From Chitinophagales bacterium (lineage in GTDB: Bacteria; Bacteroidota; Bacteroidia; Chitinophagales; CAIODY01): a stretch of DNA of 33,689 nt. Under the pieces are notes generated by a model. The model made no database searches. It was not told the origin of the DNA and saw only the letters and a program-made list of their open reading frames with translations. Position numbers and translations under genes: made by a program. This document shows, piece by piece, positions 14,649 to 30,712 of this stretch (positions are counted from its first letter, which is position 1; every line of letters starts with the position of its first letter). The stretch is from positions 1 to 33,689 of the forward strand of contig CANFST010000033.1 of NCBI GenBank assembly GCA_947449695.1. The letters run 5' to 3'.

Positions 14649-14720
14649 GGCGCCGTCGTACAATGGATAGTATAAGAGTTTCCGAAGCTCCAGATTCAGG
14701 TTCGATTCCTGACGGTGCTA
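14649..14720 (+). tRNA. tRNA-Arg (anticodon CCG)
   Basis: The cloverleaf can be folded by eye. The acceptor stem is GGCGCCG with CGGTGCT, with G-U wobbles at pairs 1-72 and 4-69. The D arm is GTAC/GTAT, the anticodon loop TTCCGAA with anticodon CCG, and the T arm TCAGG-TTCGATT-CCTGA, with discriminator A at 14720. The anticodon stem has an A-C mismatch at the 27-43 pair. CCA is not encoded. It decodes CGG. An intrinsic terminator follows closely. Confidence 0.9.
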
Positions 14721-14728
14721 CATTTTTC

Positions 14729-14758: not shown

Positions 14759-14877
14759 ATTTAAGGTAAAAAATTTCTATTTGTGAGTTTTAACAAATTC
14801 AAAAGCCGCAATTAATCTTTTAATAGACTTGAGGTAATGATTTGGTAATATGCAAAAACTTGTTTTGCACCCAAATG

Positions 14878-17646
14878 ATGAAAAAAATATTCTTACCCCT
14901 TATTTGTGTGTTGCTAATTCAATCAGCAACAGTTTTTGCAGTTAATATCAAAGGCAAAGTACTTGATAATTCAAACCATGAACAGTTAATTGGAGCGACA
15001 GTTTCAATTAAAGGGACTAATATTGGTGCTATTACTAATTTAGATGGCACTTTTAAAATTAGCAATATTGTTGATGGTAATTATGTCTTGATTTGTTCTT
15101 ATGTTGGTTTCGAGTCTCAAGAAATAAGCATTTCTATTGCAGGAAATACCGATGTAGAAAAAGATTTTTATCTAGTTGAAAAAACAAATCAAATTAAAGA
15201 AATAACCATTAAAGTTGGTGACAAGGAGAGTGATAATTCTGCACGTAAAGCCGAACAAGCTGCCGACCATTTAATGAATGTTGTTTCGGCTAACACGATT
15301 GATTTATCTCCTGACTTAACTGTTGGAAGTGTGTTAAGAAGAGTATCAGGTGTTTCTATTCAAGGCACAAGTACAGGGCATGCACAATATGCAATTGTAA
15401 GAGGTATGGATAAGAGATACAATTACACTTTATTGAACGGTATTAAAGTGCCAAGTCCTGATAATAAAAATCGTTTTGTGCCTATGGATTTATTTCCATC
15501 AGATATGTTACAAAAATTGGAAGTAATTAAATCACTTACGCCAAGTATGGAGGCTGATGCTATTGGTGGTGTGATGAATTTAGTAATGAAAGAAGCACCA
15601 GATGCATTTATGCTGAAAGCCAATGTGGGTGGAGGTTATAGTGATATATGGGGCGAACGTCCATTTTCTCAATTCAGTACTAGTAACATTAATAAGTTGT
15701 CTCCAATTGAAAGAAATAGTTCGAGCTATTCACCAACTTTAGCTGATTTTCCTATTGCGGTTTTTGATAATAAAAATGTTAAAACACCTGTAAACTCATT
15801 GGCTAATTTTGTTGTTGGTAATCGTTTTCTAAATAAAAAATTAGGTGTTTTATTGGCAGGTAGTTATAACAATTCTAATACTGGTACTAACTCTAATTTC
15901 TATGTTCAAAATTCGCAACCAGGTTTAAATAACACACCATTATTTAGTGATTTACAATTACGTCAATATTCTGTAAACCAAGACAGAAAAGGTGCTCACT
16001 TATTAGTTGATTATGTTTTTGACAGAAAAAATAAACTTACTTTTACAGCTACTGGAATTAATTTAACTGAACAACAAACAAGATACTATGTAGATAGCGT
16101 TTTGGCAATTCAACGCACAGGACCAGGGCAAGGTAATGTAGAAGAACATTTCAGAAATCGATTAACTACTCAATCTATTGCTAATGCAACTTTAAGAGGA
16201 GAACACCAGTTATTATCTTTCTTAAAAGCTAATTGGACTGCAGCCTACAGCGAAGCTAATCAACATACACCTGATATGGCAACTTATTCAACAGCTCATG
16301 CAGTTTTTTTAGATTCCAATCATATTGAGCATGCTACAACTTCCACATTAGGAAGTATGGGCAGAACATGGCAACACAATAGTGATAAAGATAAAACTGC
16401 TAAATTGGATTTGACAGCAAAAAAAATAATTAAAGGTTTTCCAGTTGAGTTACAAATTGGGGGGTTGATTAGAAATAAAGAGCGGAATAATTTTTATGAA
16501 GACTATACTATTAAACCATTTACAACAGGTGGTAATCCTCAAACTTTCTATTCTATTGACAATGCGGTGTATAGCTTGATAACAGCCAACTTGGGTAACA
16601 ACGATGTGAACTCCTATACTAATACTGAAAATATTTTGGCTTTTTATTGGCAATTTAAAATTGAATTAACTAATAAATTAGAATTGTTAGGTGGAGCAAG
16701 AACTGAAAACACTAAAGAGCAATTTACTACGCAAATGCCTTTGACTGAAGATGGTGGTTCGGGCACAATTACTTATCAGGATTGGCTACCAAGCTTACAT
16801 TTGAAATATGCCATCAGCAAAAAACAAAATTTGAGAGCCAGTTATTTTAAAAGCTTAACCCGTCCAGGTTTCTTTGAAATTATTCCTTATTCAATCCCAG
16901 GTGACAACTATACTGAAATAGGTAATTCCTATCTGAAACATACCACTGCAGATAATTATGATTTACGTTACGAATGGTTTCCAAAAGGAATTGACCAAGT
17001 TTTGGCAGGCGTATTTATAAAAAATATTTATGACCCAATTGAATTTGCTTACGTTCGTACAGGCGTTAGTGCAGCAGCATTGCAGCCTAATAATTTTGGT
17101 ACAGCAAAAAATTATGGGTTTGAATTTGCTGTTGCAAAATATATCAAACGATTTGGGTTAGTAGGTAATTACACATTTACAAACTCTAATATTACAACAA
17201 GCAAAGTTTATAACTATAGAGATGGTAATGGCAATATCACCAACATTAATAAAGATGAAAGCCGTCCATTGCAAGGGCAATCAAAACATATTGCAAATAT
17301 AAGTTTGGTTTACAAAGACAATAAAAATGGCTTTGATGCACAATTAGCATGGGTTTATACAGGCAGAAAAATTGAACAGTTATCTTTGTATTATGGATTA
17401 GATTATTGGGCACGTGCAACAAACTTTATGGATTTCTCGGCTGAGAAAAAAATAAACAAACACTTCTCAGTTTATGCCAAAGTGCATAATATCTTAAATA
17501 CAAAAACGATTGTAGAAATTATTCAAAGCAATCCTTATCAATCAGGTACAAGTGCTTTGCCATTCCAAGATAGAAGCGACAGAATATTGGTGCAAAGTGA
17601 TTATTCAAAACAAAGTTTCTTTTTAGGTATCAAATACAAATTCTAA
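14878..17646 (+). CDS. TonB-dependent outer-membrane receptor with CarboxypepD_reg-like N-terminal domain
   Basis: This protein is 922 residues from ATG 14878 (MKKIFLPLICVLLIQSATVFA signal peptide); the preceding ATG at 14875 is an equal option. Order: CarboxypepD_reg-like beta domain (about 22-105; GKVLDNSNHEQLIGATVSIK), plug (about 140-255), then a 22-strand-type barrel ending in SFFLGIKYKF. The plug contains GSVLRRVSGVSIQGTS, then KNRFVPMDLFPSDMLQKLEVIKSLTPSM and ADAIGGVMNLVMK, typical of the TonB-Xanthomonas/Caulobacter-like receptor group. No SusD-like partner follows. Instead a beta-helix lipoprotein starts 8 bp later and a metallophosphoesterase after that, so the three form an operon. 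The substrate is unknown; an organic phosphate compound is a context-based guess. Confidence 0.93.
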   Translation: MKKIFLPLICVLLIQSATVFAVNIKGKVLDNSNHEQLIGATVSIKGTNIGAITNLDGTFKISNIVDGNYVLICSYVGFESQEISISIAGNTDVEKDFYLVEKTNQIKEITIKVGDKESDNSARKAEQAADHLMNVVSANTIDLSPDLTVGSVLRRVSGVSIQGTSTGHAQYAIVRGMDKRYNYTLLNGIKVPSPDNKNRFVPMDLFPSDMLQKLEVIKSLTPSMEADAIGGVMNLVMKEAPDAFMLKANVGGGYSDIWGERPFSQFSTSNINKLSPIERNSSSYSPTLADFPIAVFDNKNVKTPVNSLANFVVGNRFLNKKLGVLLAGSYNNSNTGTNSNFYVQNSQPGLNNTPLFSDLQLRQYSVNQDRKGAHLLVDYVFDRKNKLTFTATGINLTEQQTRYYVDSVLAIQRTGPGQGNVEEHFRNRLTTQSIANATLRGEHQLLSFLKANWTAAYSEANQHTPDMATYSTAHAVFLDSNHIEHATTSTLGSMGRTWQHNSDKDKTAKLDLTAKKIIKGFPVELQIGGLIRNKERNNFYEDYTIKPFTTGGNPQTFYSIDNAVYSLITANLGNNDVNSYTNTENILAFYWQFKIELTNKLELLGGARTENTKEQFTTQMPLTEDGGSGTITYQDWLPSLHLKYAISKKQNLRASYFKSLTRPGFFEIIPYSIPGDNYTEIGNSYLKHTTADNYDLRYEWFPKGIDQVLAGVFIKNIYDPIEFAYVRTGVSAAALQPNNFGTAKNYGFEFAVAKYIKRFGLVGNYTFTNSNITTSKVYNYRDGNGNITNINKDESRPLQGQSKHIANISLVYKDNKNGFDAQLAWVYTGRKIEQLSLYYGLDYWARATNFMDFSAEKKINKHFSVYAKVHNILNTKTIVEIIQSNPYQSGTSALPFQDRSDRILVQSDYSKQSFFLGIKYKF

Positions 17647-17654
17647 TTTTTTTT

Positions 17655-19031
17655 ATGAAAAATATTTTCTCAAATAGTTTAATTACAATTGCGATTTTAA
17701 CTGTTATTGCAACAAGTTGTTCAAAGCCCGAATTAGTTAATATTTATAAAGTTCCACCTGTAGCAGGTGTTGATGTCGGCGATTTAACTGATATTTCGGG
17801 AACTATAAAGGGAACACTTAAAGTCGGCAGAACTTACAACATGGTTGGAAATATTATCGTGAATTTTGGTGATACACTATGGTTGCAAAATGGAGTAACT
17901 GTAAATGTAAAAGGTGAGTATGGGTTTTATATTCGTGGTGTAATGATTTCGTTAGGAACAAAATCAAACCCAAATTGGATTACGTATCCAGCAGCCACTA
18001 AAACTGACAATCCGACTCAGGATCCTACAACTGATGCGGCTTTGCAAGGTCGTTGGGCTGGTATAAGTTGTGATACAACTTGCCCTTTATTTATTTTAAA
18101 ATGGACGCATGTTGAATTCGCAGGTGCATTTCACAAAAGTCCTCCATCAATGGTAAATGTAGCCAATAACGCAAAATCATACCCAATTTTATTTCAAAAC
18201 CCAAAAGGTTTTTTCATTATGGAAGATTCTTGGCTATATGGTTCGGTGGATGATGCTATCAGAACTTATGGTGGCAAAATTCATGTAATGAGAAACACTT
18301 TTGAAAAATGTGGTTTTGTAGGTGGAGAAGGTATTAATACAAAAGTTGGTACAGTAGGCAATGTTGCTTATAATGTTTTTATCGGCATGGCGACAAATGG
18401 TCCGAAGGCTTCTAACAAAGGTGTTGGAACTATTCAAACCAATATGGCTGCTTACAACAACACTATTTTAAATTCAGGTTATAGAAGAAATTCAACTGGT
18501 CGTGGTGGAAGTATTAACTACGAAGAAGGAGCAAAAGGATTTTCTTATAATGATTTAATTGTGAATTGTAAATATGGATTCAGAGTTGTTCAAAATCCAC
18601 CGGCTGATACTTTAAATTTAACATACGGAAATCATTATTATTATGGTGATTCTTTAGCTGTGGTGAATCAGTTTTATCCTACTGCTTATGTAACTCATCC
18701 ACAAATTTCTGATTTCCCTTTGTATACAAGCTATTTGCCGTCTAATTATACATTAGGAATGATCTATAATGCACCTACTTTAGTTAGTGTAAACGACCCT
18801 AAATTTGTAAACTTCCCATTACCAATGTATAACTATCAAAAAGTTGCTTATGTAGGTACTTATGATTTTCATTTGCAGAGTTCATCACCAGCTATTGGAA
18901 AAGGAACTACTTCATTCTCACCAATTAGTAATGGAGTTATTATTAATGCACGTTATGGAGCAAATGAAATAACTTTACCAGGTGCTGATATGGGTGCTTA
19001 TCAATCAAACGGAACAGGAAATCAACATTAA
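17655..19031 (+). CDS. Lipoprotein with right-handed beta-helix fold
   Basis: This 458-residue lipoprotein has lipobox VIATSCSKPEL near residue 22. Residues after the Cys (S-K-P-E) partly resemble the Bacteroidota surface lipoprotein signal. The body shows short repeated beta turns typical of pectate-lyase-like beta-helices: LWLQNGVTVNVKGEYGFYIRG, then FFIMEDSWLYGSVDDAIRTYGGKIHVMRNTFEKCGF, and YNDLIVNCKYGFRVVQNPP. No polysaccharide-lyase catalytic pattern was recognised. It ends with ADMGAYQSNG, as many Bacteroidota beta-helix proteins do. Its place between a TonB-dependent receptor (8 bp gap) and a phosphoesterase (6 bp gap) suggests a surface substrate-binding partner of the receptor. Confidence 0.75.
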   Translation: MKNIFSNSLITIAILTVIATSCSKPELVNIYKVPPVAGVDVGDLTDISGTIKGTLKVGRTYNMVGNIIVNFGDTLWLQNGVTVNVKGEYGFYIRGVMISLGTKSNPNWITYPAATKTDNPTQDPTTDAALQGRWAGISCDTTCPLFILKWTHVEFAGAFHKSPPSMVNVANNAKSYPILFQNPKGFFIMEDSWLYGSVDDAIRTYGGKIHVMRNTFEKCGFVGGEGINTKVGTVGNVAYNVFIGMATNGPKASNKGVGTIQTNMAAYNNTILNSGYRRNSTGRGGSINYEEGAKGFSYNDLIVNCKYGFRVVQNPPADTLNLTYGNHYYYGDSLAVVNQFYPTAYVTHPQISDFPLYTSYLPSNYTLGMIYNAPTLVSVNDPKFVNFPLPMYNYQKVAYVGTYDFHLQSSSPAIGKGTTSFSPISNGVIINARYGANEITLPGADMGAYQSNGTGNQH

Positions 19032-19037
19032 TTTTTT

Positions 19038-20060
19038 ATGACAAAAAGAAATTTATTTTTTGGTGTAGCATTTTTTATTGCTGCTCTTCAGTTTTCATTT
19101 GCACAAACCAAAAGCAATGAAAAATTATTGTACTCGTTTGTTGCAACAGGTTGCAATCGAGTTGACAAAGAAGATGTAAATCCTGAAAACCCAAGCACAG
19201 CTAATGTTGAGCAATTAAAAAAAACTTTTGAGGATGTTGCTACATTAAATCCGCAACCTGATTTCTTTTTTTTCTTGGGCGATTTAATCATGGGTTATTC
19301 ACCTGATACTGCTATGTTGGGTAAGGAATTAAGAGCTTGGAAAAATATTTATTATCAATCATCATTGAGTAAAACAAAAACCAAAATGATTGTTGTACCA
19401 GGCAATCATGAATTATTTAAGGGTAAAAATAAACCTGCTTACGAAGCTGCCGAACAATGTTGGATAAACAACATGAATGAATTTTTGCCTTATAATAATG
19501 GGCCGAAAAAAGCTGGCGATGATAATTTACAAACTGACCAAACTAGATTAACTGGTTCTTTCAATTTCAAAAAATCACATTTTATTTTGTGCAATACCGA
19601 TGGCGTTGGAATGGAATCAAAAGTGCCCATTCAATGGATTGCAAAGGATTTAAAAACTGCAAAAAAGAACAACCCGATTTTTGTTTTTAGTCATGAACCA
19701 TGTGTGGCTTACAATGGCGAAAAAGGATTAGATACTGCTAAAAATTTACGAAACAGATTCTGGAGTTTGTTGGAAGATAATCATGTAACAGCAATGGTTT
19801 CGGCACATAATCATGTGTATTTTAAAAAGCAATATAATGCTGGGAAAACCTGGCAAATTGTTGCAGGAAATGGTGGAAGTAAATTGGAAAAAGAAGTTAC
19901 TAAAAAAGAAGACCAGTTTTATGGCTTTGTACAAATCAAAGTTTATAAAAGTAAAAAAGTTGAGATGAATATGTTTGGAAGAGATTTCAATCTAAATAAT
20001 TATTTAGCTCCACCAACTTCTTCAACTACTGTAAGAGATAATAAATGGTTGGTAGAATAA
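19038..20060 (+). CDS. Exported metallophosphoesterase
   Basis: This 340-residue protein has a signal peptide (MTKRNLFFGVAFFIAALQFSFAQ). Metallophosphoesterase motifs are present in order: FFFFLGDLIMGYS (GD), VVPGNHELFKGK (GNHE), FVFSHEPCVAYNG (metal His) and MVSAHNHVYF (a GHxH variant). The first motif, normally DxH, is not evident; the equivalent strand reads SFVATGCNRVDKED. The family cleaves phosphomonoesters or diesters using two metals, in the periplasm or at the surface here. It follows the beta-helix lipoprotein by 6 bp and is the third gene of that operon. The altered first motif may shift metal use or substrate. Confidence 0.85.
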   Translation: MTKRNLFFGVAFFIAALQFSFAQTKSNEKLLYSFVATGCNRVDKEDVNPENPSTANVEQLKKTFEDVATLNPQPDFFFFLGDLIMGYSPDTAMLGKELRAWKNIYYQSSLSKTKTKMIVVPGNHELFKGKNKPAYEAAEQCWINNMNEFLPYNNGPKKAGDDNLQTDQTRLTGSFNFKKSHFILCNTDGVGMESKVPIQWIAKDLKTAKKNNPIFVFSHEPCVAYNGEKGLDTAKNLRNRFWSLLEDNHVTAMVSAHNHVYFKKQYNAGKTWQIVAGNGGSKLEKEVTKKEDQFYGFVQIKVYKSKKVEMNMFGRDFNLNNYLAPPTSSTTVRDNKWLVE

Positions 20061-20096
20061 TATCAGTTCAATAAATTCGTTTACTTTAGCGAAGCA

Positions 20097-20483
20097 ATGA
20101 CAAAATTTTTCGCCATCATTTTATTGTCGTATCATCTGTTTGGCACTATGTGTTTGCCAATGAGTGATTTTTCGGTGATAGCTGATTTGCCTAAAATGTA
20201 TCAACATTGCAAAGCAACCGAAGATGCTGATTTGGATATTTTCGATTTTGTAACCGACCATTTAATGGATTTTGATACGGTTTTTGATATTCACGAACAA
20301 GGCGAAAAACCTCATCAATCCAACGCTGTAAGTCATTCTATTCAACAAGTGAATTTTGTAGCGCCTTTCTTTAGTTTTATTTGCTCCGAAATAAAAATTA
20401 CTGAAAACATACTTCCAGTTTTTATTTCAAATTTTATTCCAACAGATTTTTTAGCTTCTGTTTTTCGTCCTCCAATTTTATAA
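20097..20483 (+). CDS. Small exported protein of unknown function, PP-tail type
   Basis: This 128-residue protein starts 36 bp after the metallophosphoesterase stop. A hydrophobic signal (MTKFFAIILLSYHLFGTMC) is followed by LPKMYQHCKATEDADLDIFDFVTDHLMDFD, an acidic/His segment HEQGEKPHQ, and a C-terminal FRPPIL. It resembles small Bacteroidota proteins that sit next to TonB-dependent receptor genes, with a (L/P)P..(Y/H)xxHxxxx...FDF core and a terminal PP. The short tail echoes the FHPPCC tail of the Cys-rich protein at 4471-4839. No catalytic motif is seen. Acidic and His residues would allow metal binding, but this is a guess. Confidence 0.6.
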   Translation: MTKFFAIILLSYHLFGTMCLPMSDFSVIADLPKMYQHCKATEDADLDIFDFVTDHLMDFDTVFDIHEQGEKPHQSNAVSHSIQQVNFVAPFFSFICSEIKITENILPVFISNFIPTDFLASVFRPPIL

Positions 20484-20579
20484 TTTTATTTTTCCACTGT
20501 TCAATTTTCACACACCAATTCATTTTTTGAAATGGATGTGCTTTCAATTATTTTATAAAAATTAAAAACAAAAATCAAG

Positions 20580-20996
20580 ATGAAATATCTAATAACAGTG
20601 CTTTGTGTAGCACTTTACATCAACACAACTTTTGCTCAAAAAATTTCGGCTGATAAAGTTCCAGCAGCAGTTTTAAAATCTTTTCAAACAAAATTTCCAT
20701 CCATTAAAAAAGCAAAATGGGAAATCGAAAATGGAAATTATGAAGCAGAATATGACGAAAACAAAATCGAACATTCTGCTTTATTTAAAGCAGATGGAAC
20801 ATTGATTGAAACAGAAATTGAAATTGCTGTAAATCAATTACCAAAGGCAATTACTGATTATGTTGCTAAAGACATGAACGGAAAAAAAATAAAAGAAGCG
20901 TCTATCATTACTGAAACCAATGGCAAAAAAAAGTATGAAGTCGAAATAGGTGGAAAGGATTATTTGTTTGATCAAAATGGTAAATTTTTAAATTAA
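20580..20996 (+). CDS. Exported PepSY-like (PF11396-type) protein
   Basis: This is a 138-residue periplasmic protein with signal peptide MKYLITVLCVALYINTTFAQ. Two PepSY-like repeats follow: PAAVLKSFQTKFPSIKKAKWE with NYEAEYDEN, and LPKAITDYVAKDMNGKKIKEASI with KKYEVEIGGKDYLFD. This is the typical pattern of the putative beta-lactamase-inhibitor-like PepSY-like family. Members are small exported modules of unclear role, often near two-component systems or membrane transport genes in Bacteroidota. A stem-loop terminator follows 13 bp after the stop. The TonB-dependent receptor comes next on the same strand. Confidence 0.8.
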   Translation: MKYLITVLCVALYINTTFAQKISADKVPAAVLKSFQTKFPSIKKAKWEIENGNYEAEYDENKIEHSALFKADGTLIETEIEIAVNQLPKAITDYVAKDMNGKKIKEASIITETNGKKKYEVEIGGKDYLFDQNGKFLN

Positions 20997-21009
20997 TTTT
21001 CTCTTAACC

Positions 21010-21044
21010 AAGTGTTGAATAGCTTTGCTGTTCAACACTTTTTT
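21010..21044 (+). terminator. Intrinsic terminator or attenuator immediately before the second receptor
   Basis: AAGTGTTGAA (21010-21019) pairs with TTCAACACTT (21031-21040), with inner AGC/GCT pairing around a TTT loop, and is followed by a T-run to 21044. It ends only 12 bp before the receptor start codon (21057). The loop contains TAGCTTTG (21020-21027), itself a TAnnTTTG match, but with no -33 element. It either ends transcription from the PepSY-like gene or regulates read-through into the receptor. Confidence 0.7.
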
Positions 21045-21056
21045 ACAATTAAAAAA

Positions 21057-23258
21057 ATGAAGAAACTTATTTTCCTGTTACTGTTGTCAGCAACTATCAA
21101 TTTTGCGTTTGCACAAAATAAAATCACTATTAAAATTGCAGATGCCAATACAACTTTACCATTACAAGGCGTTTCAGTTGGTGATGTAAAAGCTGGCATT
21201 GGAGGTACAACCAATGAAAAGGGTGAATTAGAACTTAATTTGCGCAAAGATTCTACTTATCATTTTAATGTTTACATGTTCAATTATGAAAATGCCGAAC
21301 AAACTATAATTGCCAATTGGAATAATATTGAAAACAAAACTTTCAAGATTTTTATTGAGCCAAAATCGAATAAAATTAACGAAGTACGCATCACTGCGAA
21401 TAGAACTAATGATCGAATTGAAGATGCGCCAACAAAAGTGGAAGTAATTGGCACCGAAGAAATGAATGAAGAAAGTACGCTGAAACCAGGTAATGTAGCC
21501 AGTTTGCTGGGCGATTTATCAGTCATTCACATTCAACAAACATCGGCCGTTAATGGCAATTCGGTGATTCGATTACAAGGATTAGATGGTCAATACACAC
21601 AATTGATGAGAGATGGATTGCCGATGTATGAAGGCTTTTCGGGCAGTTTTGGGTTGTTGTCAATTCCTCCTTTAGATTTAAAACAAGCTGAAATCATTAA
21701 AGGCTCTGCCTCTACACTCTTTGGTGGTGGCGCCATTGCCGGTGTTATTAATTTGGTTTCAAAAGAACCAACCGATAGTTTAACAGGCACTTTGTTGGTG
21801 AATCAATCTACTTTGAAAGAAACCAATTTGAATTTCTTTGCTGCCAAAAGAAACAAATACACGGGCTTTACTTTTTTTGGCGGACAAAATTTTCAGCAAG
21901 CTGTTGATGTAAATAAAGATGGTTTTTCGGATGTGCCCTATGTGAAACAAACGGTGCTGCATCCTAAGATTTTTATTTACCCCAATAAAAAAATCACCAT
22001 CATTGCTGGGTTGAATGCTATTACCGAAAGCCGCATGGGTGGCGATATGCAAGCCATCAATCAAACCCCTGATGCCACACATCCATTTTATGAAAACAAT
22101 CAAAGTACACGATTGGCTGCTGATTATAAATTGATGGCAAATGAAGGTATGCACCATTTTATTTTGAAAGGAATTGTAAGTTGGTATGATAGAAGTGTGT
22201 TGCAATCTGACTCATCAGGCAGTAATGTTTTCAAAGGTGAACAAACACAAAACTTTGCTGAAGCCAGTGATATGTTGGCATTTAAAAATCAAAAATTAGT
22301 GTATGGTTTGGCTTACAATAGCGAACATTTTGTCAATAAATTTACCACTAACGATTCTATCCAAAGTTATCTCTACACAACGGTTTCAGCATTTGTGCAA
22401 CACACTTGGAACATCACTCCAAAATTTTTAACCGAGGCAGGATTCAGATTTGATAATCATAGTCGATATGGCAATTTTTATTTACCTCGATTGAGTTTGT
22501 TTTATCGCCCGAATAAAAAATTCTCTATCAGAGTAGGAGGAGGAAGTGGATATAAAAATCCAGCGATGTTTAGCAAACAAACTTTAGATTATCGTTTTAA
22601 TCAAATTACTTTTCCTAACGCCAATGTCAAGCCAGAAAACAGTTTGGGTATAAATGCTGACATTAATTTTCATAGCCACATTGGTAAAGTATTAGTAAGT
22701 ATTGACCAAGCATTTTATCATACACAAATCACAGATGCGGTGATGGTGAAAGAAAATGCGAACCATTTTATTTCGTTTTATAATTACAGCGGACAAGTAA
22801 AAACTGATGGCACGGATACTTATGTACGCTTAAAATTAGAAGAACTCGAATGGTATTTTGGTTTAAATCATACCATTGGAATTTATAGCAATGGCGGCAC
22901 TTCAAGCTATGTTCCCTATTTTCCACAAGATAAAGTTTCATCTACTATGGCTTATGAAATTGAAGGGGTTTGCCGAGTTGGATTGGAAGCCAGTTATCAA
23001 GCTAATCAATATATTACACCCAACAGCAACGATAATTTTTCGGTAAATAGAACGCACAATTATTGGTTCTTTGCGATGATGATTGCTAAAGATTTTAAAT
23101 GGGGAAGTCTAGTTTTGAATTGCGAAAATTTGGGCGATTATCGTCAATCAAAAATTGAAAGGCTTTATAATGGAAATACTATTAATCCTCAGTTTAAAGG
23201 CATTTGGGCACCCATTGATGGCAGAATTTTTAACTTGAGTTTGAAAGTTAATTTGTAA
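21057..23258 (+). CDS. TonB-dependent outer-membrane receptor (FecA/BtuB-like group)
   Basis: This protein is 733 residues from ATG 21057 (MKKLIFLLLLSATINFAFAQ); the open frame extends upstream, but that part overlaps a terminator hairpin. Order: short CarboxypepD_reg-like domain (about 22-105; GVSVGDVKAGIGGTTNEKGELEL), plug (about 120-235) and barrel. In the plug, RIEDAPTKVEVIGTEEM is TonB-box-like, and GNSVIRLQGLDGQYTQLMRDGLP and SASTLFGGGAIAGVINLVSK follow. The protein ends IFNLSLKVNL. It looks like a siderophore/cobalamin/metal-type receptor rather than a SusC, and no SusD is nearby. The substrate cannot be deduced. It is followed by a response regulator 225 bp downstream. Confidence 0.92.
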   Translation: MKKLIFLLLLSATINFAFAQNKITIKIADANTTLPLQGVSVGDVKAGIGGTTNEKGELELNLRKDSTYHFNVYMFNYENAEQTIIANWNNIENKTFKIFIEPKSNKINEVRITANRTNDRIEDAPTKVEVIGTEEMNEESTLKPGNVASLLGDLSVIHIQQTSAVNGNSVIRLQGLDGQYTQLMRDGLPMYEGFSGSFGLLSIPPLDLKQAEIIKGSASTLFGGGAIAGVINLVSKEPTDSLTGTLLVNQSTLKETNLNFFAAKRNKYTGFTFFGGQNFQQAVDVNKDGFSDVPYVKQTVLHPKIFIYPNKKITIIAGLNAITESRMGGDMQAINQTPDATHPFYENNQSTRLAADYKLMANEGMHHFILKGIVSWYDRSVLQSDSSGSNVFKGEQTQNFAEASDMLAFKNQKLVYGLAYNSEHFVNKFTTNDSIQSYLYTTVSAFVQHTWNITPKFLTEAGFRFDNHSRYGNFYLPRLSLFYRPNKKFSIRVGGGSGYKNPAMFSKQTLDYRFNQITFPNANVKPENSLGINADINFHSHIGKVLVSIDQAFYHTQITDAVMVKENANHFISFYNYSGQVKTDGTDTYVRLKLEELEWYFGLNHTIGIYSNGGTSSYVPYFPQDKVSSTMAYEIEGVCRVGLEASYQANQYITPNSNDNFSVNRTHNYWFFAMMIAKDFKWGSLVLNCENLGDYRQSKIERLYNGNTINPQFKGIWAPIDGRIFNLSLKVNL

Positions 23259-23483
23259 TAAATGCTTTTGCTGAATTGGATTTATAATCAGATTGTAATG
23301 AGTAACAAATTTTAATCTGTTTTTCAATAAAAACTTATTATAAATCCATTTTAGCAAACTATTCTGCATTGTTTTATTAGTGATTTGTTTAAATTGAATT
23401 ATTGCTAACTTAATTATTAGGTAATATAGGTAGGGTTATTTTGCTGTTGAATTAATGTGAAATACATTTTTAATTAAATAGCA

Positions 23484-24182
23484 ATGAAAACCAAAAAGAA
23501 AATTCTTATTGCGGATGATGAGCAAGATGTTTTGGATTTTTTAGAACATACTTTTATAGCAGAAGGATTTGAAGTGGCTACTGCCAAAGATGGTATTCAG
23601 GCTTTGAAAAAAGCAAATTCATTTTATCCTGATTTATTTTTACTAGATATTAAAATGCCTAACTTAGAAGGTATTGCTTTATGCGAACAATTGCGAAGTA
23701 CTGATGAATTTAAAACTACACCAATTGTGTTTTTAACTGCACAAAATACTGAAGCAGTTGAAGTAGAAGCTTTTAATATTGGCGCTAATGATTTTATTAC
23801 TAAACCAATAAAACCAAAAGCTTTACTGATAAGAATTAACCGATTATTACCGGCTCATACAACTACACCTGCCAAAATAAAATATTCATCGCAAGATTCT
23901 ATTACCCGATTAGGAAACATTGATGTGAATAATGATGAATATAAAATTACATCAAATGGCAAGGATATCTTTTTTGCTAAAAAAGAATTTCAAATTATTC
24001 AGTTATTGGCTACCAAACCTGGCAAAGTATTTACAAGGGCAGAAATTTTCAAAAAAGTATGGGGCGATAATTTGATTATGACTGATAGAACTATTGATGT
24101 ACATATCAGAAAAATCAGAATTAAAGCAGGTGATGATTTTATTAGAACTGTGAAAGGAGTAGGCTTCAAAGTAGAAGGCTGA
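23484..24182 (+). CDS. Response regulator, OmpR/PhoB family
   Basis: This 232-residue DNA-binding regulator has a receiver domain (1-120) with acidic pocket D11/D12, phospho-acceptor D55 (LLDIKMP), T85 (FLTA) and K107 (FITKP). Its C-terminal winged helix (about 140-230) has KKEFQIIQLLATKPGKVFTRAEIFKKVWG and TIDVHIRKIR, then FIRTVKGVGFKVE. All key residues are intact. No sensor histidine kinase gene is in the window, so the partner is elsewhere or the gene is an orphan. Its position between two receptor/phosphatase groups makes control of those genes plausible, by analogy with PhoB, but PhoB identity cannot be settled from the sequence. Confidence 0.93.
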   Translation: MKTKKKILIADDEQDVLDFLEHTFIAEGFEVATAKDGIQALKKANSFYPDLFLLDIKMPNLEGIALCEQLRSTDEFKTTPIVFLTAQNTEAVEVEAFNIGANDFITKPIKPKALLIRINRLLPAHTTTPAKIKYSSQDSITRLGNIDVNNDEYKITSNGKDIFFAKKEFQIIQLLATKPGKVFTRAEIFKKVWGDNLIMTDRTIDVHIRKIRIKAGDDFIRTVKGVGFKVEG

Positions 24183-24676
24183 TAAGCAGTTTTTTCAACT
24201 CCATGAAGGGCTAATATTTTTGAAAGATTTGTTTCATCCCTTTGAAAAACTAGTATTTATTACATTTGAAAACGTTTATTCATCGCATTTACTTTTTCCC
24301 ATCTTAATCCAATTTATCGTATTCCCCTTTTGTTTGATTTAACTATCAACAATCTTATTTAATTTATTGATGAACTTATTTCTTCTATTGTTAAAAATAT
24401 TTCATCCTTATTCAAGAAAAATCAATAAACTATTGATTTGCATTATTTCGAATAAGAATTTATCATTTACAAACTTGATTTTATTCCATGTATGCATACA
24501 TTATCTAATTTCATGCATAAATGGATATATTGCTAATTGGAAATAATACTTTTTTTATTTGAATTTGCTTTTATCAAGTGAATAGTTGTTGGTTTATAGT
24601 TACCAGCAAAGGCTGATTGAATAGTAATGTTAATTAGTAATTAAATTAAAAAAGGCAAGTAATGAAAATAGCCAGA
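24183..24676. other. Gene-free convergent region (494 bp) with small palindromes
   Basis: No credible coding frame is seen on either strand between the response regulator and the convergent Tat metallophosphoesterase. The region holds a promoter-like TACATTTG at 24261-24268 (plus strand; an upstream TTTG is 16 bp away, somewhat short). It also has a perfect hairpin AATCAATA-AAC-TATTGATT at 24420-24438 and the perfect 14-bp palindrome ATGTATGCATACAT at 24488-24501. It is very AT-rich. It could encode a small RNA or be spacer DNA. Confidence 0.4.
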
Positions 24677-25633
24677 TTATTTCCAATCATAATAATGCAA
24701 TTCGCGTTCAGTTGTACCATCATTATATAAATTCATGATGGCAAATGCAGGAGCAAATTCTTTATAATTACCTTCCCACCAACTACCACACACAGCACCA
24801 TTGCAGTAATAATTAATACCTAAATATTCTAATTGATCAACCAAATGAATATGTCCGCTTAAGCAGGTCTTTATATTTGGATATTGATAAAAAAGATTTT
24901 TCAAAAAAGTTGCATCGCTGTGCATACAATTATCACTCACATTCATTCGGTTATGATGGGGTGTACTGCCATCAAAAAAAGAACAGATGCTTAAAATAGG
25001 AATGTGCGATACAATACAAATAAATTGATGGGTTGAAATACTCAATTCGTTTTTTAACCAATCCATTTGAGCTTCATCTAACTTAGCAACGTAACCTGGA
25101 ATAGTATTTCGTGGATGAATACTATCTAACACAATAATTTTCCAGTTGCCTTTGTTGAGGGCATAATAAGATTGATTTAAACCTAGTTCATCTTTTGCCC
25201 AATTCTTTCCTTTATCGTTGGTAATAGATGGTGTAAGCCAGCCAAAAACGTCATGATTGCCAATGCAATGATGAATAGGCAAGCTGTTTTCATTGTTTAA
25301 AATAGTATGAAATGAATGCCATTGTTTTTTTACCAAATCTTTTGTTGCTAATACCGAATTCATAATTGCATCACCACCGTTGATAATGAAATCAGGTTTG
25401 TCTTTTAAATCATTCACCGCATGCAATGCTTTGCTGAAGCCAGTTTCAGAAACTAATTCAGGTTTTACATGAATATCAGTTAAATGAGCAACACGTAAAA
25501 TTCTTTTTCGTTGAGGTGATGTTAAAGGAGTAGCGGCAGCCATTGCTTTTTCAGCAAATAAATTTTGAAACAATAAACCACCTGCCCCAATTAAAGCAGA
25601 TTGTTTTAAAAAACCACGGCGTGATGATTTCAT
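24677..25633 (-). CDS. Tat-exported metallophosphoesterase
   Basis: This 318-residue protein begins with a twin-arginine signal (MKSSRRGFLKQSALIGAGGL), so it is exported folded, probably with metals already bound. All metallophosphoesterase motifs are present: VAHLTDIHVKPE (DxH), IINGGDAIMNS (GD), HHCIGNHDVFGW (GNHD), IVSHIPIL (His) and LSGHIHLVD (GHxH). It is expected to hydrolyse phosphoester bonds in the periplasm. It is divergent from the YncE/phosphoesterase fusion gene, with a 222-bp shared control region. Unlike the enzyme at 19038-20060, the first motif is intact here. Confidence 0.92.
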   Translation of the reverse strand: MKSSRRGFLKQSALIGAGGLLFQNLFAEKAMAAATPLTSPQRKRILRVAHLTDIHVKPELVSETGFSKALHAVNDLKDKPDFIINGGDAIMNSVLATKDLVKKQWHSFHTILNNENSLPIHHCIGNHDVFGWLTPSITNDKGKNWAKDELGLNQSYYALNKGNWKIIVLDSIHPRNTIPGYVAKLDEAQMDWLKNELSISTHQFICIVSHIPILSICSFFDGSTPHHNRMNVSDNCMHSDATFLKNLFYQYPNIKTCLSGHIHLVDQLEYLGINYYCNGAVCGSWWEGNYKEFAPAFAIMNLYNDGTTERELHYYDWK

Positions 25634-25730
25634 TTGTATGTGTAAAGAATTATAAAAAAATTGACGGATGGAGTAGTTGATTTTTATAATCCCTTTTGCT
25701 TAATTTCTATGCAAAGAACGAGCAGCTAGA

Positions 25731-25745
25731 TGAACAGAATGTTCA
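25731..25745. promoter_or_regulatory. Candidate operator palindrome in the divergent phosphoesterase promoter region
   Basis: A perfect inverted repeat TGAACA-GAA-TGTTCA lies midway between the divergent starts at 25633 and 25856. Its size and symmetry suit a dimeric regulator. No second copy was noticed in the window, and the regulator is unknown. Confidence 0.35.
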
Positions 25746-25822
25746 CGATTTGTTATTCGCAAATGAAATATGTTTGAACTAATTGTGAAGAGCTATTTAT
25801 CATTCGCTTAACATCGCTTTTC

Positions 25823-25830
25823 TAACTTTG
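25823..25830 (+). promoter_or_regulatory. Candidate -7 element for the YncE/phosphoesterase fusion gene
   Basis: TAACTTTG matches TAnnTTTG and ends 25 bp before the ATG at 25856. No TTTG -33 element at the standard spacing was seen. Confidence 0.45.
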
Positions 25831-25855
25831 TGTTTCATTATTTCATTTCAATTTT

Positions 25856-28288
25856 ATGCATCAACGCTTTTCAATTTTGGTTCTTTATTTTATTTTTTCA
25901 ACCACAGTTTTTGCACAAACAAAACCAGAAAACAATATTTTAAAAACTGTTGTATTGCCCAATGGATGGGCAATTACAGCCATAGGTAATAGTTTGCCAT
26001 TAGGCGATTTGCCATTGAATATGGTAGTAAGCAATTCAAAGAGAATGATTGCAGTAACCAACAATGGGCAGAGTGTGCAAAGCTTGCAATTGATTGATGT
26101 TGCTAATGAAAAAGTGTTGGACAATTTAGTCATTCCAAAATCATTTTATGGGTTAAAAATTTCGGCTGATGATAAGTTTTTGTTTGCATCTGGTGGCAAT
26201 GATAATCGCATTTTGAAATACAGCATCATTCAAAATCATTTGCAATTGGTTGATTCATTTTATTTGGGCAAAGCCATGAAAGAAAAAATTTCACCAGCAG
26301 GAATTGATTTAGATGAATCGAAAAACTTACTGTTTGTGGTTACTAAAGAAAGCAATTCGTTGTACGTTATTCATTTAAAAACAAAAAAGATAGTGCAGCA
26401 AATTCCCTTGCCCGATGCGGCGTACAGTTGTTTGTTATCAAAAAATAAAAAGCAGTTGTACATCTCGTGTTGGGGTTGCGATAAAGTGTTGGTGTATGAT
26501 ATTTCGGAACAAAGAATTGTTTCAGAAATAAAAGTGGGCGACAATCCCAACGAATTGTTGATGACTAAAAATGGTAAGTATTTGTTTGTAAGTAACGCTA
26601 ATGATAATTCAGTATCGGTGATTGATTTGAAAACAAATCTGGTGATAGAAACATTAAACGCAGCTTTATTTCCTGATGCGCCAAGTGGCTCTACATCTAA
26701 TGGTTTGGCATTGAGCAACGATGAAAAAACTTTGTTTGTTGCTAATGCAGATAATAATTGTTTGGCGGTGTTTGATGTGAGTGAAAAGGGCAGCTGCAAA
26801 GGCAAAGGCTTCATTCCAACTGGTTGGTATCCGACCAATGTAAAAGTGATTGATGATAAAATTTGGGTGTGTAATGGCAAAGGTTTTTCATCCAAGGCAA
26901 ATCCACATGGACCAAATCCTATCAACAAAAAACAGAAAGCCACCTATCAAAAATCGGATAATGAGAAGCCGCAAGAAGTTGAATACATCGGCGGTTTGTT
27001 CAAAGGAACGATGAGTATTTTTTCTGTGCCAAATGAAAAGGAATTGAGCGAATATTCAAAAATGGCGTATGTCAATTCACCTTATACCAAACAAAAAGAA
27101 ACAATGGCAAGTGGCAATGGAAGCCCGATTCCGAACAAAGTTGGTAATTCTTCACCTATAAAATATGTGTTCTACATCATCAAAGAAAACAGAACTTACG
27201 ACCAAGTGTTGGGTGATGTAAAAGAAGGTAATGGGGATACTTTGTTGGTTTTATTTGGTAAACATTACACACCTAATCAACATGCTTTGGCAAAGCAATT
27301 TGCGCTGTTGGATAATTTTTATGTAGATGGCGAAGTGAGTGCTGATGGGCACAATTGGAGCATGGGTGCTTACGCCACCGATTATTTAGAAAAAACTTGG
27401 CCTACCTCTTATGGTGGAAGAGGCGGCAGTTATGATGCCGAAGGCAATCGTGAAATTGCGAATAACAGAGGTGGTTTTATTTGGGATTTGTGTAGCCGAC
27501 AAAAAGTTAGTTATCGCACTTATGGCGAATTTGCCGATAATTTTAAACCCAATATTCCTGTTTTAAAAAATCATCTTTGCAAAAATTACACGGGCTGGAA
27601 TCCAGCAGTAGCAGACACTACAAGATTTCAGCAATGGAAAAATGATTTTGATTCATTGTTGGCTATCCATCAAGTGCCACAATTTAATTCGCTCCGATTT
27701 CCAAACGACCACACCGAAGGTTTGCGAAAAAATGCACCTACACCTTTTGCATACGTGGCTGATAATGATTTAGCAACTGGCTTGTTTGTTGATTATTTAA
27801 GCCATAGTTCTATTTGGAATGAAAGTGTAGTTTTCATTTTAGAAGATGATGCACAAAATGGTCCTGACCACGTAGATGCTCATCGTTCGCCAGTTTACGT
27901 GGCTGGTGGAAAAGTGAAAACAAATTTTGTTGACCACACCATGTATTCCACTTCATCTGTTTTAAGAACGATGGAATTAATTTTAGGAATGCCACCGATG
28001 ACGCAATATGATGCAGCGGCAGAGCCTATGTGGCGATGTTTCACTGATAGTGTTTTTCATGTACCGTTTCAATCGGTGCCATGCGAAATTGATTTACACG
28101 AAAAAAATATTGCCATGAACGAATGGCAAAAACGTTCTGAATTATTTGATTTTAAAGGCGAAGACCGTGTGCCCGATTTGGAACTAAATAAAGTATTGTG
28201 GTATGGTTTAAAAGGAGAAGCGAAGCCCTTTCCATCGCCTGTTAGAGCTGCTTTTGTGAAATGGGAAAACAAAAAAGATGATAATTAA
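25856..28288 (+). CDS. Bifunctional YncE-like beta-propeller / phosphoesterase (alkaline phosphatase-like) protein
   Basis: This is an 810-residue exported protein (signal MHQRFSILVLYFIFSTTVFAQ). Residues about 40-350 form a YNCE/lactonase-type propeller with repeated blades such as KYLFVSNANDNSVSVIDLKTNLVIETL and KTLFVANADNNCLAVFDVS. Residues about 430-740 form a phosphoesterase domain of the phospholipase C/acid phosphatase superfamily, with FYIIKENRTYDQVLGDVKEG, then DNFYVDGEVSADGHNWSMGAYATDYLEKTW and FILEDDAQNGPDHVDAHRSPVYVAGG. This fusion is a recognised Bacteroidota arrangement. The enzyme probably cleaves phosphomonoesters or diesters at the cell envelope, while the propeller may bind substrate. 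It is divergent from the Tat metallophosphoesterase. Confidence 0.92.
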   Translation: MHQRFSILVLYFIFSTTVFAQTKPENNILKTVVLPNGWAITAIGNSLPLGDLPLNMVVSNSKRMIAVTNNGQSVQSLQLIDVANEKVLDNLVIPKSFYGLKISADDKFLFASGGNDNRILKYSIIQNHLQLVDSFYLGKAMKEKISPAGIDLDESKNLLFVVTKESNSLYVIHLKTKKIVQQIPLPDAAYSCLLSKNKKQLYISCWGCDKVLVYDISEQRIVSEIKVGDNPNELLMTKNGKYLFVSNANDNSVSVIDLKTNLVIETLNAALFPDAPSGSTSNGLALSNDEKTLFVANADNNCLAVFDVSEKGSCKGKGFIPTGWYPTNVKVIDDKIWVCNGKGFSSKANPHGPNPINKKQKATYQKSDNEKPQEVEYIGGLFKGTMSIFSVPNEKELSEYSKMAYVNSPYTKQKETMASGNGSPIPNKVGNSSPIKYVFYIIKENRTYDQVLGDVKEGNGDTLLVLFGKHYTPNQHALAKQFALLDNFYVDGEVSADGHNWSMGAYATDYLEKTWPTSYGGRGGSYDAEGNREIANNRGGFIWDLCSRQKVSYRTYGEFADNFKPNIPVLKNHLCKNYTGWNPAVADTTRFQQWKNDFDSLLAIHQVPQFNSLRFPNDHTEGLRKNAPTPFAYVADNDLATGLFVDYLSHSSIWNESVVFILEDDAQNGPDHVDAHRSPVYVAGGKVKTNFVDHTMYSTSSVLRTMELILGMPPMTQYDAAAEPMWRCFTDSVFHVPFQSVPCEIDLHEKNIAMNEWQKRSELFDFKGEDRVPDLELNKVLWYGLKGEAKPFPSPVRAAFVKWENKKDDN

Positions 28289-28293
28289 TAATC

Positions 28294-28312
28294 AAAAGTT
28301 TGGTAAACTTTT
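28294..28312. terminator. Hairpin between convergent genes
   Basis: AAAAGTTT (28294-28301), a GGT loop and AAACTTTT (28305-28312) form an 8-bp perfect stem in the 35-bp gap between two convergent stop codons. T- or A-runs flank it on both strands, so it could act in both directions, though the stem is GC-poor. Confidence 0.45.
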
Positions 28313-28323
28313 CTTGTCAATTC

Positions 28324-29682
28324 TTATTGTGCATTTTTCACCACTTTTATTGTGCGAATGTGGCTTTGATTGCTTATTGTCAAAAAGTAAATACCATTGG
28401 GTAAATCGTGGGTGTCAATTCGTAAATCATTAGAAAAAATAGCTTCCATTTTTTTTACTGGTTGCCCCAATAAATTTCGCATCTCAATTGTATTGACTAA
28501 TGACAAATGACTGATCACAAATGACTGATTTGTTGGATTAGGATACACTTCCACTTCATCTAAATTATTGCTTTCCGAATTGCCAACATTTGCAATACCT
28601 GTTGCAGGCATTGAGTTTTTATATTGATAAACTAATTTAGCGGCAACAGGATATTTATTCGAAAACTGAAACATTGAATTCACCACAACGCTAGGAGCAG
28701 AAGTATTCTTAATTGAGCTGCTATCATTTACTGAGATACCCACCCGATGACCATCATTGCCCACTGTGTGATAAGAATTGGGTAAATAAGAAATATTATA
28801 GCTGCCACTTTTAATATAATTAGATAATAAAATATGATCATACCAGTTTTTCCCTCCACCTGATGTGCCACAAGTGTTAGGAATAGAAGCTGATTGACGA
28901 GTAGAGGTGGTTAAATAGGCAGCACAACTGCTTGGATTGTTTCCCCAATTGAGTGGATAGGTTAAATGATGGTCTATATTAAAAGGAGGGTCATAAAAAA
29001 GATAGTTTGTATCACTTTGATGAGTTATTAGGTTATAACCAAACTCGGTACTGGTGCTGGTATTAAAATCACCCATATAAATAATATTGGGCAATGGATA
29101 AAATTGTTTTTTTAGCTGATGCATAATCATGGAATCTTGTGCATCACGAGTGGAAGTGTTATTTCCTGACTGCGTATGACCTAATACAACATACAAAAAT
29201 GTAGTATCATGAACACGGGCTAACATAGTATCTTGAAGGTATAATTTAAACAGATTAAAATCTTCGGTATTCGTACAAAGTGTTTTAATGTTTTCAAATC
29301 CGAACTTATGTTTGTTGTAAAACAAGACACAAATTGTTGAACTTTGAGTAGCATTTGTAAAACTGCAATGGGTATATGTATTTGGCAGGGCTGCATTTAA
29401 AGCGTATTTTTCAATACTATCTGCAAAGCCAATAGGAGAGAGGTCATAGAAATCAGAAGCATTAAATTTGATAGATTGTAATTTTACTAATCCTAATAAA
29501 TCGGGTTGAGTAAACTGAATAATGTTTTTTAAATGAGGATGCATTAATGCCGGCGGATTTTGACAATTATCGCCATAGTTCAAAACATTATAACTCATCA
29601 CTTTAAAAGTATCAGTTTGAGCCATGCAATTAAAATTGGCAATGAACAAACTGAGCAATAAGATTTTTATAAAATTTTTCAT
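28324..29682 (-). CDS. Secreted endonuclease/exonuclease/phosphatase-fold protein with T9SS sorting domain
   Basis: This 452-residue protein has a signal peptide ending NFNCMAQ, an EEP (DNase I-like) domain at about 24-300, and a T9SS type A sorting domain at about 375-452 (EVYPNPTNQSF, LPNGIYFLTISNQ). EEP motifs seen are VMSYNVLNYG, YMGDFNTSTSTEFGY, NWYDHILLS and NDGHRVGISV. The metal-binding Glu normally found in a QE or NE step reads K here (LLGLVKLQSI). Members cut phosphodiesters in nucleic acids or phospholipids; with T9SS export it would act at or outside the cell surface. A 13-bp direct repeat lies within the sorting-domain coding region. It is convergent with the YncE/phosphoesterase gene. 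Confidence 0.82.
   Translation of the reverse strand: MKNFIKILLLSLFIANFNCMAQTDTFKVMSYNVLNYGDNCQNPPALMHPHLKNIIQFTQPDLLGLVKLQSIKFNASDFYDLSPIGFADSIEKYALNAALPNTYTHCSFTNATQSSTICVLFYNKHKFGFENIKTLCTNTEDFNLFKLYLQDTMLARVHDTTFLYVVLGHTQSGNNTSTRDAQDSMIMHQLKKQFYPLPNIIYMGDFNTSTSTEFGYNLITHQSDTNYLFYDPPFNIDHHLTYPLNWGNNPSSCAAYLTTSTRQSASIPNTCGTSGGGKNWYDHILLSNYIKSGSYNISYLPNSYHTVGNDGHRVGISVNDSSSIKNTSAPSVVVNSMFQFSNKYPVAAKLVYQYKNSMPATGIANVGNSESNNLDEVEVYPNPTNQSFVISHLSLVNTIEMRNLLGQPVKKMEAIFSNDLRIDTHDLPNGIYFLTISNQSHIRTIKVVKNAQ
28503..28529. repeat. In-gene direct repeat in the T9SS sorting domain
   Basis: ACAAATGACTGAT occurs at 28503-28515 and 28517-28529, a 14-bp period, with a related TAATGAC just before. It encodes residues around SFVISHLSLVN inside the sorting domain of the EEP-fold protein. 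Confidence 0.7.
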
Positions 29683-29750: not shown

Positions 29751-30671
29751 TTATTCGATAATCAATTTTTTGTTAGCAACAATTTGATTTTGTTGATTCG
29801 AAATTTGAATAAAATAAATACCACTATTCAAATTATTACGTTCAATAGTAACAGGGAAAGTACAGTTATCAATAGTTTTAACTGTTTGACCAATCATATT
29901 AATGATATTTACTTTGTTTACATTTTTCAAAGTAGAAGTAATAATAAATTTATCTGAAGTTGGATTTGGATAAATTTCAAAAGCGTTATTATCATAAACA
30001 TTATTAACTCCACTACCACTTCCGCCATTTGTTCCTTTAACAATTATATCATCCAATCTTAAAGTTCCATTTGAGCTATTAATAATGTTGCATGTCCATT
30101 TCAAAATTAAAGAAGCTTTGTTTTCTGCTTTAGTTGGTAAAGCAATAGGAGTAGCATTATTAGTTAAATGCCAAGCTCCATCAGGTATTACACGAGTATA
30201 AGCAACAGTATCCCAAGTTGAACCATTATCAACTGAAAAAGATAATGTAGCAGTTGTTGAACCACCACCTGTAAAACTTGCAGTTGTTCTTGAACCCCAG
30301 CTAACTGTAATACCAGTTTTGCCTGTAGTTGAAACACTTGGAGCAAATAATTCATAAGTACCAGTTGAATCTAAATTATTTCTGATTACAACATGGTCAA
30401 ATCCTGAAGCTGTATCAGGAGGAGTTCCATAACCGCCTTGTGAATATAAAGGAGCTGAATTTGTTCTTAAAGTATCAACAAACCATCCTGGAGACATGTT
30501 GTTAGCATAAAACGGACGTGAGTAATGCCATCCTGTTGGCAAGCTATCTAAATGTGTTGCTTTGATTGCATCAAAGTTTTCATTTAATAAATAAACTGTT
30601 TGTGCATGGCTTGTTTGCAATGCAAATACCAATAAAATGGTAGATAAAATAAATGTAATTTTTTGCTTCAT
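29751..30671 (-). CDS. Secreted adhesin-like protein with T9SS sorting domain
   Basis: From ATG 30671 (MKQKITFILSTILLVFALQTSHAQ signal peptide) the protein is 306 residues. A longer reading from TTG 30707 is rejected because that codon lies inside a promoter-like element. The body resembles cleaved-adhesin/choice-of-anchor J beta-sandwich domains: LLNENFDAIKATHLDSLPTGWHYS, then GFDHVVIRNNLDSTGTYELFAPSV, then ATLSFSVDNGSTWDTVAY and LRLDDIIVKG. A T9SS type A domain follows (EIYPNPTSDKFII ... LNSGIYFIQISNQQNQIVANKKLII). It is probably exported across the outer membrane and anchored or released. The binding target is unknown. It is divergent from the large Ig-repeat gene. Confidence 0.82.
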   Translation of the reverse strand: MKQKITFILSTILLVFALQTSHAQTVYLLNENFDAIKATHLDSLPTGWHYSRPFYANNMSPGWFVDTLRTNSAPLYSQGGYGTPPDTASGFDHVVIRNNLDSTGTYELFAPSVSTTGKTGITVSWGSRTTASFTGGGSTTATLSFSVDNGSTWDTVAYTRVIPDGAWHLTNNATPIALPTKAENKASLILKWTCNIINSSNGTLRLDDIIVKGTNGGSGSGVNNVYDNNAFEIYPNPTSDKFIITSTLKNVNKVNIINMIGQTVKTIDNCTFPVTIERNNLNSGIYFIQISNQQNQIVANKKLIIE

Positions 30672-30704
30672 GTTGAAATACTTTTTTTGTTTTTGATTTG
30701 TGTG

Positions 30705-30712
30705 CAAATGTA
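30705..30712 (-). promoter_or_regulatory. Candidate -7 element for the adhesin-like gene
   Basis: The minus strand reads TACATTTG (TAnnTTTG), 33 bp before ATG 30671 in the divergent gap 30672-30939. No clear -33 element was seen. It overlaps the alternative TTG start and so argues against it. Confidence 0.45.

Follow-up and report, generated by a model that had tools for sequence, protein, structure and literature searches.

Does a 15-kb run of genes for exported phosphoesterases and TonB-dependent receptors in a Chitinophagales bacterium make up a system for scavenging organic phosphate? The question is raised by positions 14878-29682 of contig CANFST010000033.1 (assembly GCA_947449695.1), for which the original prediction, made from the sequence letters, proposed one locus with four exported phosphoesterases and two receptors acting together. 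The whole stretch of 33,689 nucleotides, here called the window, is one complete contig (C33) of a draft genome of 3.14 Mb in 99 contigs, estimated to be 99% complete with 4% contamination; all the open reading frames (ORFs) that had been named are present where they were placed. Our answer is that this is probably a phosphate-starvation (PHO) locus of the kind called phosphate utilisation system (PUS) in Bacteroidota, of the PUS/ElpS type, with phosphorus enzymes flanking it. The phosphate role is supported for the receptor operon and the regulator gene, because the receptor/lipoprotein pair is conserved with interchangeable phosphoesterases, the architecture has been published as induced at low phosphate, and Pho-box-type repeats stand before both.

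The operon consists of three tightly spaced genes on the forward strand. The first, TBDR1 (14878-17646), codes for a TonB-dependent receptor with a CarboxypepD_reg_2 domain (Pfam, NCBIfam). Its ORF runs from a TTG at 14842, with an ATG at 14878, and its best NCBIfam model is a Xanthomonas/Caulobacter receptor type, scored below the cut-off. After 8 bp follows the gene for an ElpS/FI/FII-like lipoprotein (17655-19031), and after 6 bp more the gene for MPE1 (19038-20060), a Sec-exported calcineurin-like phosphoesterase (PF00149, E 4e-12) which has kept the GD, GNHE and H-N-H motifs and in which GCNR replaces the usual D-x-H of motif I. The lipobox cysteine of the lipoprotein, Cys-22, is invariant across the alignment of its family. 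Pfam gives no match for this protein, neither the SusD-like domain (PF07980/PF14322) nor any other; the fold is instead a right-handed beta-helix, as had been proposed and as is borne out, where sequence profiles are silent, by an AlphaFold2 model (pLDDT 85.8) and by structural matches found with VIA (Z about 20-23 to PL6 lyases, AlgG/AlgE and pectate lyases). Foldseek alone gave a weak match to the model (E 0.025). By sequence search, neither MPE1 nor the lipoprotein had a match among PDB chains, and the lipoprotein had none in plasmids. A tRNA-Arg gene (CCG) lies at 14649-14721, immediately 5' of the operon, and may mark an insertion boundary.

The beta-helix lipoprotein was found in 15 of 248 genomes in an order-wide search and in 23 of 395 genomes in a phylum-wide sample, and neighbourhoods of at most 20 kb were read around the matches outside the genus. 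A scan of genome contigs gave the sister species (G001, an uncultured metagenome-assembled genome whose locus is L034) as the only match. A TBDR1 homologue lies directly 5' of the lipoprotein gene at all 18 loci of the order outside the genus and at each of the 20 loci added by the phylum search. The gene 3' of the lipoprotein gene was tallied at 40 loci, the window and the sister included (39 others across the phylum), and in about half of them it codes for a phosphoesterase, of varying family. It is a calcineurin-like or purple acid enzyme at 10 loci (L036-L039, L141, L143, L144, L146 and the window among them), a PF02333 beta-propeller phytase at 7 (L046, L050, L051 and L138, and by homology L139, L140 and L142) and a homologue of the EEP-fold gene of the window at 2 (L035, 43%; L128, 44%). 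A YncE propeller takes this slot at 3 loci and one unnamed propeller family at 11, with the latter as second gene at a twelfth; about 6 loci have no recognisable gene there. The distant locus L141 has two tandem MPE1 homologues (42% and 40%) directly 3' of the lipoprotein gene.

The unnamed propeller-like family (L130, L131, L133, L134, L136, L137, L028, L044, L045, L047, L040 and L135) consists of exported proteins of about 300-340 amino acids with DWED and GDN motifs, and the members scanned gave no significant Pfam match. It is a candidate new phosphatase.

Chances seem about even that the receptor/lipoprotein pair forms, across Bacteroidota, a conserved surface platform under Pho control whose enzyme slot is exchangeable, where the enzyme would set the phosphorus source and the receptor would stay unchanged. 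The slot enzymes, named with the same divided confidence, would be the calcineurin-like, purple acid, phytase and EEP enzymes, the YncE propeller and the DWED/GDN propeller family. As far as a limited literature search shows, two things are new: that the slot is interchangeable across the phylum, and the 18-bp repeat described below. Few organisms account for what is known of organic phosphorus use in Bacteroidota; if the reading is true, a conserved platform and an 18-bp repeat would make phosphate regulons readable in the genomes of uncultured lineages, and would offer candidates for the function of the ElpS/FI/FII lipoproteins and for new phosphatases.

In Flavobacterium johnsoniae phosphate depletion strongly induces the transporter and lipoprotein genes Fjoh_0545/0546 (PUSIV) and 3857/3856 (PUSIII), and FI, FII and FIII are 31-36% identical to a lipoprotein that Caulobacter makes at low phosphate, ElpS (PMC8115612). 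The window is like PUSIII and PUSIV in having a TonB transporter gene directly 5' of the gene for a beta-helix-type surface lipoprotein, phosphorus enzymes nearby and, as in PUSIV, a PhoB-family regulator in the neighbourhood. It is unlike them in that the third gene of the operon codes for a calcineurin-like phosphoesterase, that the regulator is an orphan scoring below the PhoB cut-off, and that genes for a YncE fusion, a Tat-exported metallophosphoesterase and an EEP protein adjoin. In Caulobacter crescentus the ElpS gene adjoins the TonB receptor gene cc0171 and ElpS is made under phosphate starvation; its overproduction raises extracellular alkaline phosphatase activity, and ElpS is apparently no phosphatase itself (PMC2996285). 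Here too a receptor gene stands beside the gene of a surface lipoprotein, one which in Caulobacter is made in phosphate starvation. The Caulobacter pair precedes genes of a type II secretion system, by which ElpS is released, whereas the window has no such genes adjacent and has cargo of the type IX secretion system (T9SS) nearby. A third comparison is PUSI of F. johnsoniae, a low-phosphate locus with PusCD1 and two periplasmic phosphodiesterases (PMC8115612): the combination of a receptor with a PF00149 phosphodiesterase is shared, but the window is without a SusD-type protein and has the beta-helix lipoprotein.

The motif was obtained by unsupervised expectation maximisation (EM) on 35 receptor upstream regions, with the window and the sister left out. 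The consensus, GGTAACA-N4-GGTAACA, is two 7-nt direct repeats with an 11-nt pitch, and PHO boxes have been described with a two-repeat, 11-nt layout (PMC4415409). When each promoter was left out in turn, the receptor promoters had a median score of 14.6 against 4.1 for 368 controls drawn from those same loci (P 1e-18), and several of the top-scoring controls belong to phosphorus genes (a PlcP-like gene, regulators, a metallophosphoesterase and a homologue of the second receptor, TBDR2). With both strands scored, the two best matches in the whole window are GGTAATG-ATTT-GGTAATA at 14833-14850 (forward strand, 18.8 bits), some 25 bp 5' of the receptor ATG, and CTTAATT-ATTA-GGTAATA at 23409-23426 (forward strand, 17.05 bits), before the regulator gene; neither score was reached in 100 shuffled windows, where the mean maximum was 13.1. 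Outside the training set in the same genome, the pstS promoter scored 14.6 and that of the preceding porin-like gene 18.3 bits, the pst operon having been identified by gene order, translations and PhoU. The regulator promoters of the congeners scored 17.4 (G001) and 17.0 (G002, of the same genus and 83% complete, whose promoter was among the controls). The repeats at TBDR1, the regulator and pstS have the Pho-box layout and are predicted regulator sites. A simpler TTAAC repeat is also enriched 5' of the receptors (17 of 37 against 11.5% of 393 controls, Fisher 1e-6), and among periods 8-15 at period 11 only. Since this consensus had partly been picked by eye, the unsupervised EM was run, and only that fuller model singled out the expected promoters.

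We observed the pairing of receptor and lipoprotein, the interchangeable phosphoesterases, the folds and the repeats; induction, substrate and transport we infer as follows. At low phosphate a PhoB-family regulator would bind the 18-bp direct repeats and, to judge from where these lie, would switch on both the receptor/lipoprotein/phosphoesterase operon and the gene for the orphan PhoB-like regulator. By analogy with SusCD and PusCD, the surface lipoprotein may bind a phosphate-bearing polymer or ester and hand it to the TonB receptor, while the exported phosphoesterase would release phosphate or a smaller ester, which would then pass into the periplasm. The neighbouring phosphorus-linked enzymes, MPE2, the YncE/PF04185 fusion and the T9SS-exported EEP protein, might widen the range of esters cleaved.

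Several points speak against a phosphate-starvation locus of this kind. The proposed link to ElpS and FI/FII is drawn from architecture and fold, not from sequence comparison. The regulator (23484-24182, forward strand; Response_reg and Trans_reg_C) is of the OmpR/PhoB family as had been stated, and reaches 185.6 bits on the Bacteroidetes PhoB model NF053854, which has a cut-off of 270. The name PhoB was therefore rejected for it, and no kinase ORF of PhoR type was found beside it. A second PhoB-like orphan, on contig C9, scores higher (215 bits). The regulator has 67% identity to its G001 homologue, 59-60% to two others and 49% to the C9 orphan; homologues adjoin TBDR2 in G001 (67%) and the pair of MPE2 and YncE fusion genes in G002 (59%). 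The simple TTAAC repeat occurs at chance level in the window (6 against 6.2 expected), and the 5 exact TTAAC-N6-TTAAC matches genome-wide include none at evident phosphate genes; this pattern was dropped as evidence within the host genome. The original prediction had suggested looking for a motif shared by the promoters at 14878, 21057, 25633 and 25856. The EM motif is strong before 14878 and also before 23484, weak before 21057 (7.9 bits at 20992), and absent both from the promoter region 25633/25856 (best 5.4 bits) and from the promoter of the EEP gene at 29682 (4.2 bits). Finally, conserved co-occurrence in relatives, whose absence was to refute the original prediction, gives a divided result. 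The sub-modules are conserved, but the 15 kb as one piece are not: congener G001 holds only the receptor half and G002 only the half with MPE2 and the YncE fusion, the lipoprotein not being found in that 83% complete genome. Since the congeners carry separate halves, the idea of the whole 15 kb as a single conserved system was rejected after they had been read.

What, then, are the flanking enzymes? MPE2 (24677-25633, reverse strand) is a second calcineurin-like phosphoesterase (PF00149) and matches the Tat model TIGR01409 with 21.3 bits (cut-off 16.7). Divergent from it lies the gene for the fusion of a YncE propeller with a PF04185 phosphoesterase (25856-28288, forward strand), recognised by Pfam and with ENRTYD and EDDAQNGPDHVDAHRS motifs in the translation. 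The EEP-fold phosphodiesterase-like protein (28324-29682, reverse strand) matches the T9SS model TIGR04183 with 49.6 bits (cut-off 23), so that the Tat and T9SS export routes proposed for the two proteins are both backed by models over their cut-offs. For the EEP protein Pfam finds Por_Secre_tail only, and sequence profiles are silent on the fold; an AlphaFold2 model (pLDDT 62) with Foldseek matches to Tdp2, nocturnin and Bacteroides 3mpr (E 2e-10 to 1e-8) agrees with the fold that had been proposed, an alpha/beta sandwich. The EEP gene is adjoined by the gene for a second T9SS cargo protein (29751-30707), function unassigned.

It is conceivable, and we regard it as doubtful rather than far-fetched, that a real PHO operon with its regulator merely stands beside housekeeping or carbon-related genes for MPE2, the YncE fusion and the EEP protein which have no shared regulation with it. 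The missing repeats before 25633/25856 and 29682 and the separation of the modules in G001 and G002 fit such a juxtaposition, as does the finding that YncE-fusion promoters in general show no enrichment for the repeat. MPE2 promoters, in contrast, are modestly enriched, and the G002 homologue of the regulator adjoins the MPE2/YncE pair, a divergent pair which is also present in G114, a genome of another family. In other families, moreover, relatives of the YncE fusion adjoin genes for a TIGR03364 oxidoreductase, a phosphonate HD oxygenase (TIGR03276) and a PhnX-like hydrolase that falls slightly short of the TIGR03351 cut-off. Genes of the same types are neighbours of MPE2 relatives. At L062 (5218-11377), L091 and L092 the YncE/PF04185 relatives are clustered with the HD oxygenase, the PhnX-like hydrolase, a transporter-like protein and the TIGR03364 oxidoreductase.

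A phosphoesterase that we label PlcP-like, for which curated models give only PF00149/PF12850 and scores below the LpxH cut-offs, is found with a glycosyltransferase within about 10 kb of the receptor/lipoprotein pair in G139, G184 and G246 (binomial P about 2e-4). Near MPE2, at a distance of up to about 10 kb, it occurs together with the glycosyltransferase in G002, G140 and G180 and by itself in G114 (binomial P about 2e-4). The pair of PlcP and glycosyltransferase serves lipid remodelling in low phosphate. Both PlcP and a glycosyltransferase were among the low-phosphate genes in the F. johnsoniae study (PMC8115612). The phosphonate and PlcP-like neighbours elsewhere thus link MPE2 and the YncE fusion to phosphorus by gene context; for them, as for the EEP protein, the phosphate role is supported by association, and the joint role proposed for the whole locus is supported in part. 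Because there is no Pho-box-type match between MPE2 and the YncE fusion, their joint control with the operon is unsupported. Co-occurrence of the fusion with the lipoprotein (8 of 15 against 40 of 233 genomes, by hand count) was set aside, since a single family confounds it.

The operon might also be read as a polysaccharide-utilisation locus, with a glycan as the target that the beta-helix lipoprotein binds or cuts, and with phosphoesterases that only remove the phosphate groups decorating it so that carbon is set free. The folds closest to the lipoprotein are indeed those of PL6 lyases, pectate lyases and alginate epimerases, and Lidbury et al. model FI/FII on polygalacturonase (PMC8115612). 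There is no Pfam or NCBIfam match to a glycan enzyme for 17655-19031, though, and no recognised carbohydrate-active enzyme among the ORFs scanned in the window, while the Pho-box-type repeats and the published low-phosphate induction of the same architecture point elsewhere; we find this improbable.

The last alternative turns on TBDR2 (21057-23258, forward strand; ORF from 21012, ATG at 21057), a TonB receptor by Pfam which matches heme and siderophore receptor models below their cut-offs. It had been taken as a second importer of phosphate esters, which was not borne out. Its homologues are rarely near phosphoesterases, and a paralogue on contig C93 adjoins a CDF-like gene (assigned from the translation only), so we treat TBDR2 as a probable metal-type receptor sitting in the locus. 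That the whole is a metal-uptake locus, with a PepSY protein, TBDR2 and the regulator acquiring metal and the phosphoesterases as bystanders, is very improbable. In its favour are these receptor matches, the CDF-like neighbour and the histidine kinase/response regulator pairs flanking some TBDR2 homologues; against it, the TBDR1 operon and the repeats would stay unexplained, and at locus L038 a TBDR2 homologue lies divergent from a TBDR1 operon with an 18.3-bit repeat. Membership of TBDR2 in the phosphate system is uncertain. A phosphate link may exist, because the sister G001 has a diacylglycerol-glucosyltransferase-like gene between TBDR2 and the regulator (L034, 4330-5328; NF053513, 159 bits, below the cut-off), and because the regulator that follows carries a Pho-box-type repeat; this glycosyltransferase gene is absent from the window.

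Two peripheral genes on the forward strand precede TBDR2. One codes for a small exported protein (20097-20483), which travels with the PepSY and TBDR2 genes in an order kept in L034, L070 and L072, and the other for a PepSY-like exported protein (20580-20996; PF11396), whose gene adjoins TBDR2 homologues. About 54 bp 5' of the PepSY gene (20545-20598) have 85% identity to positions 51678-51730 of contig C1 (G000). Further upstream in the window, 11224-13293 codes for a CotH-domain protein with a P-domain and a T9SS tail.

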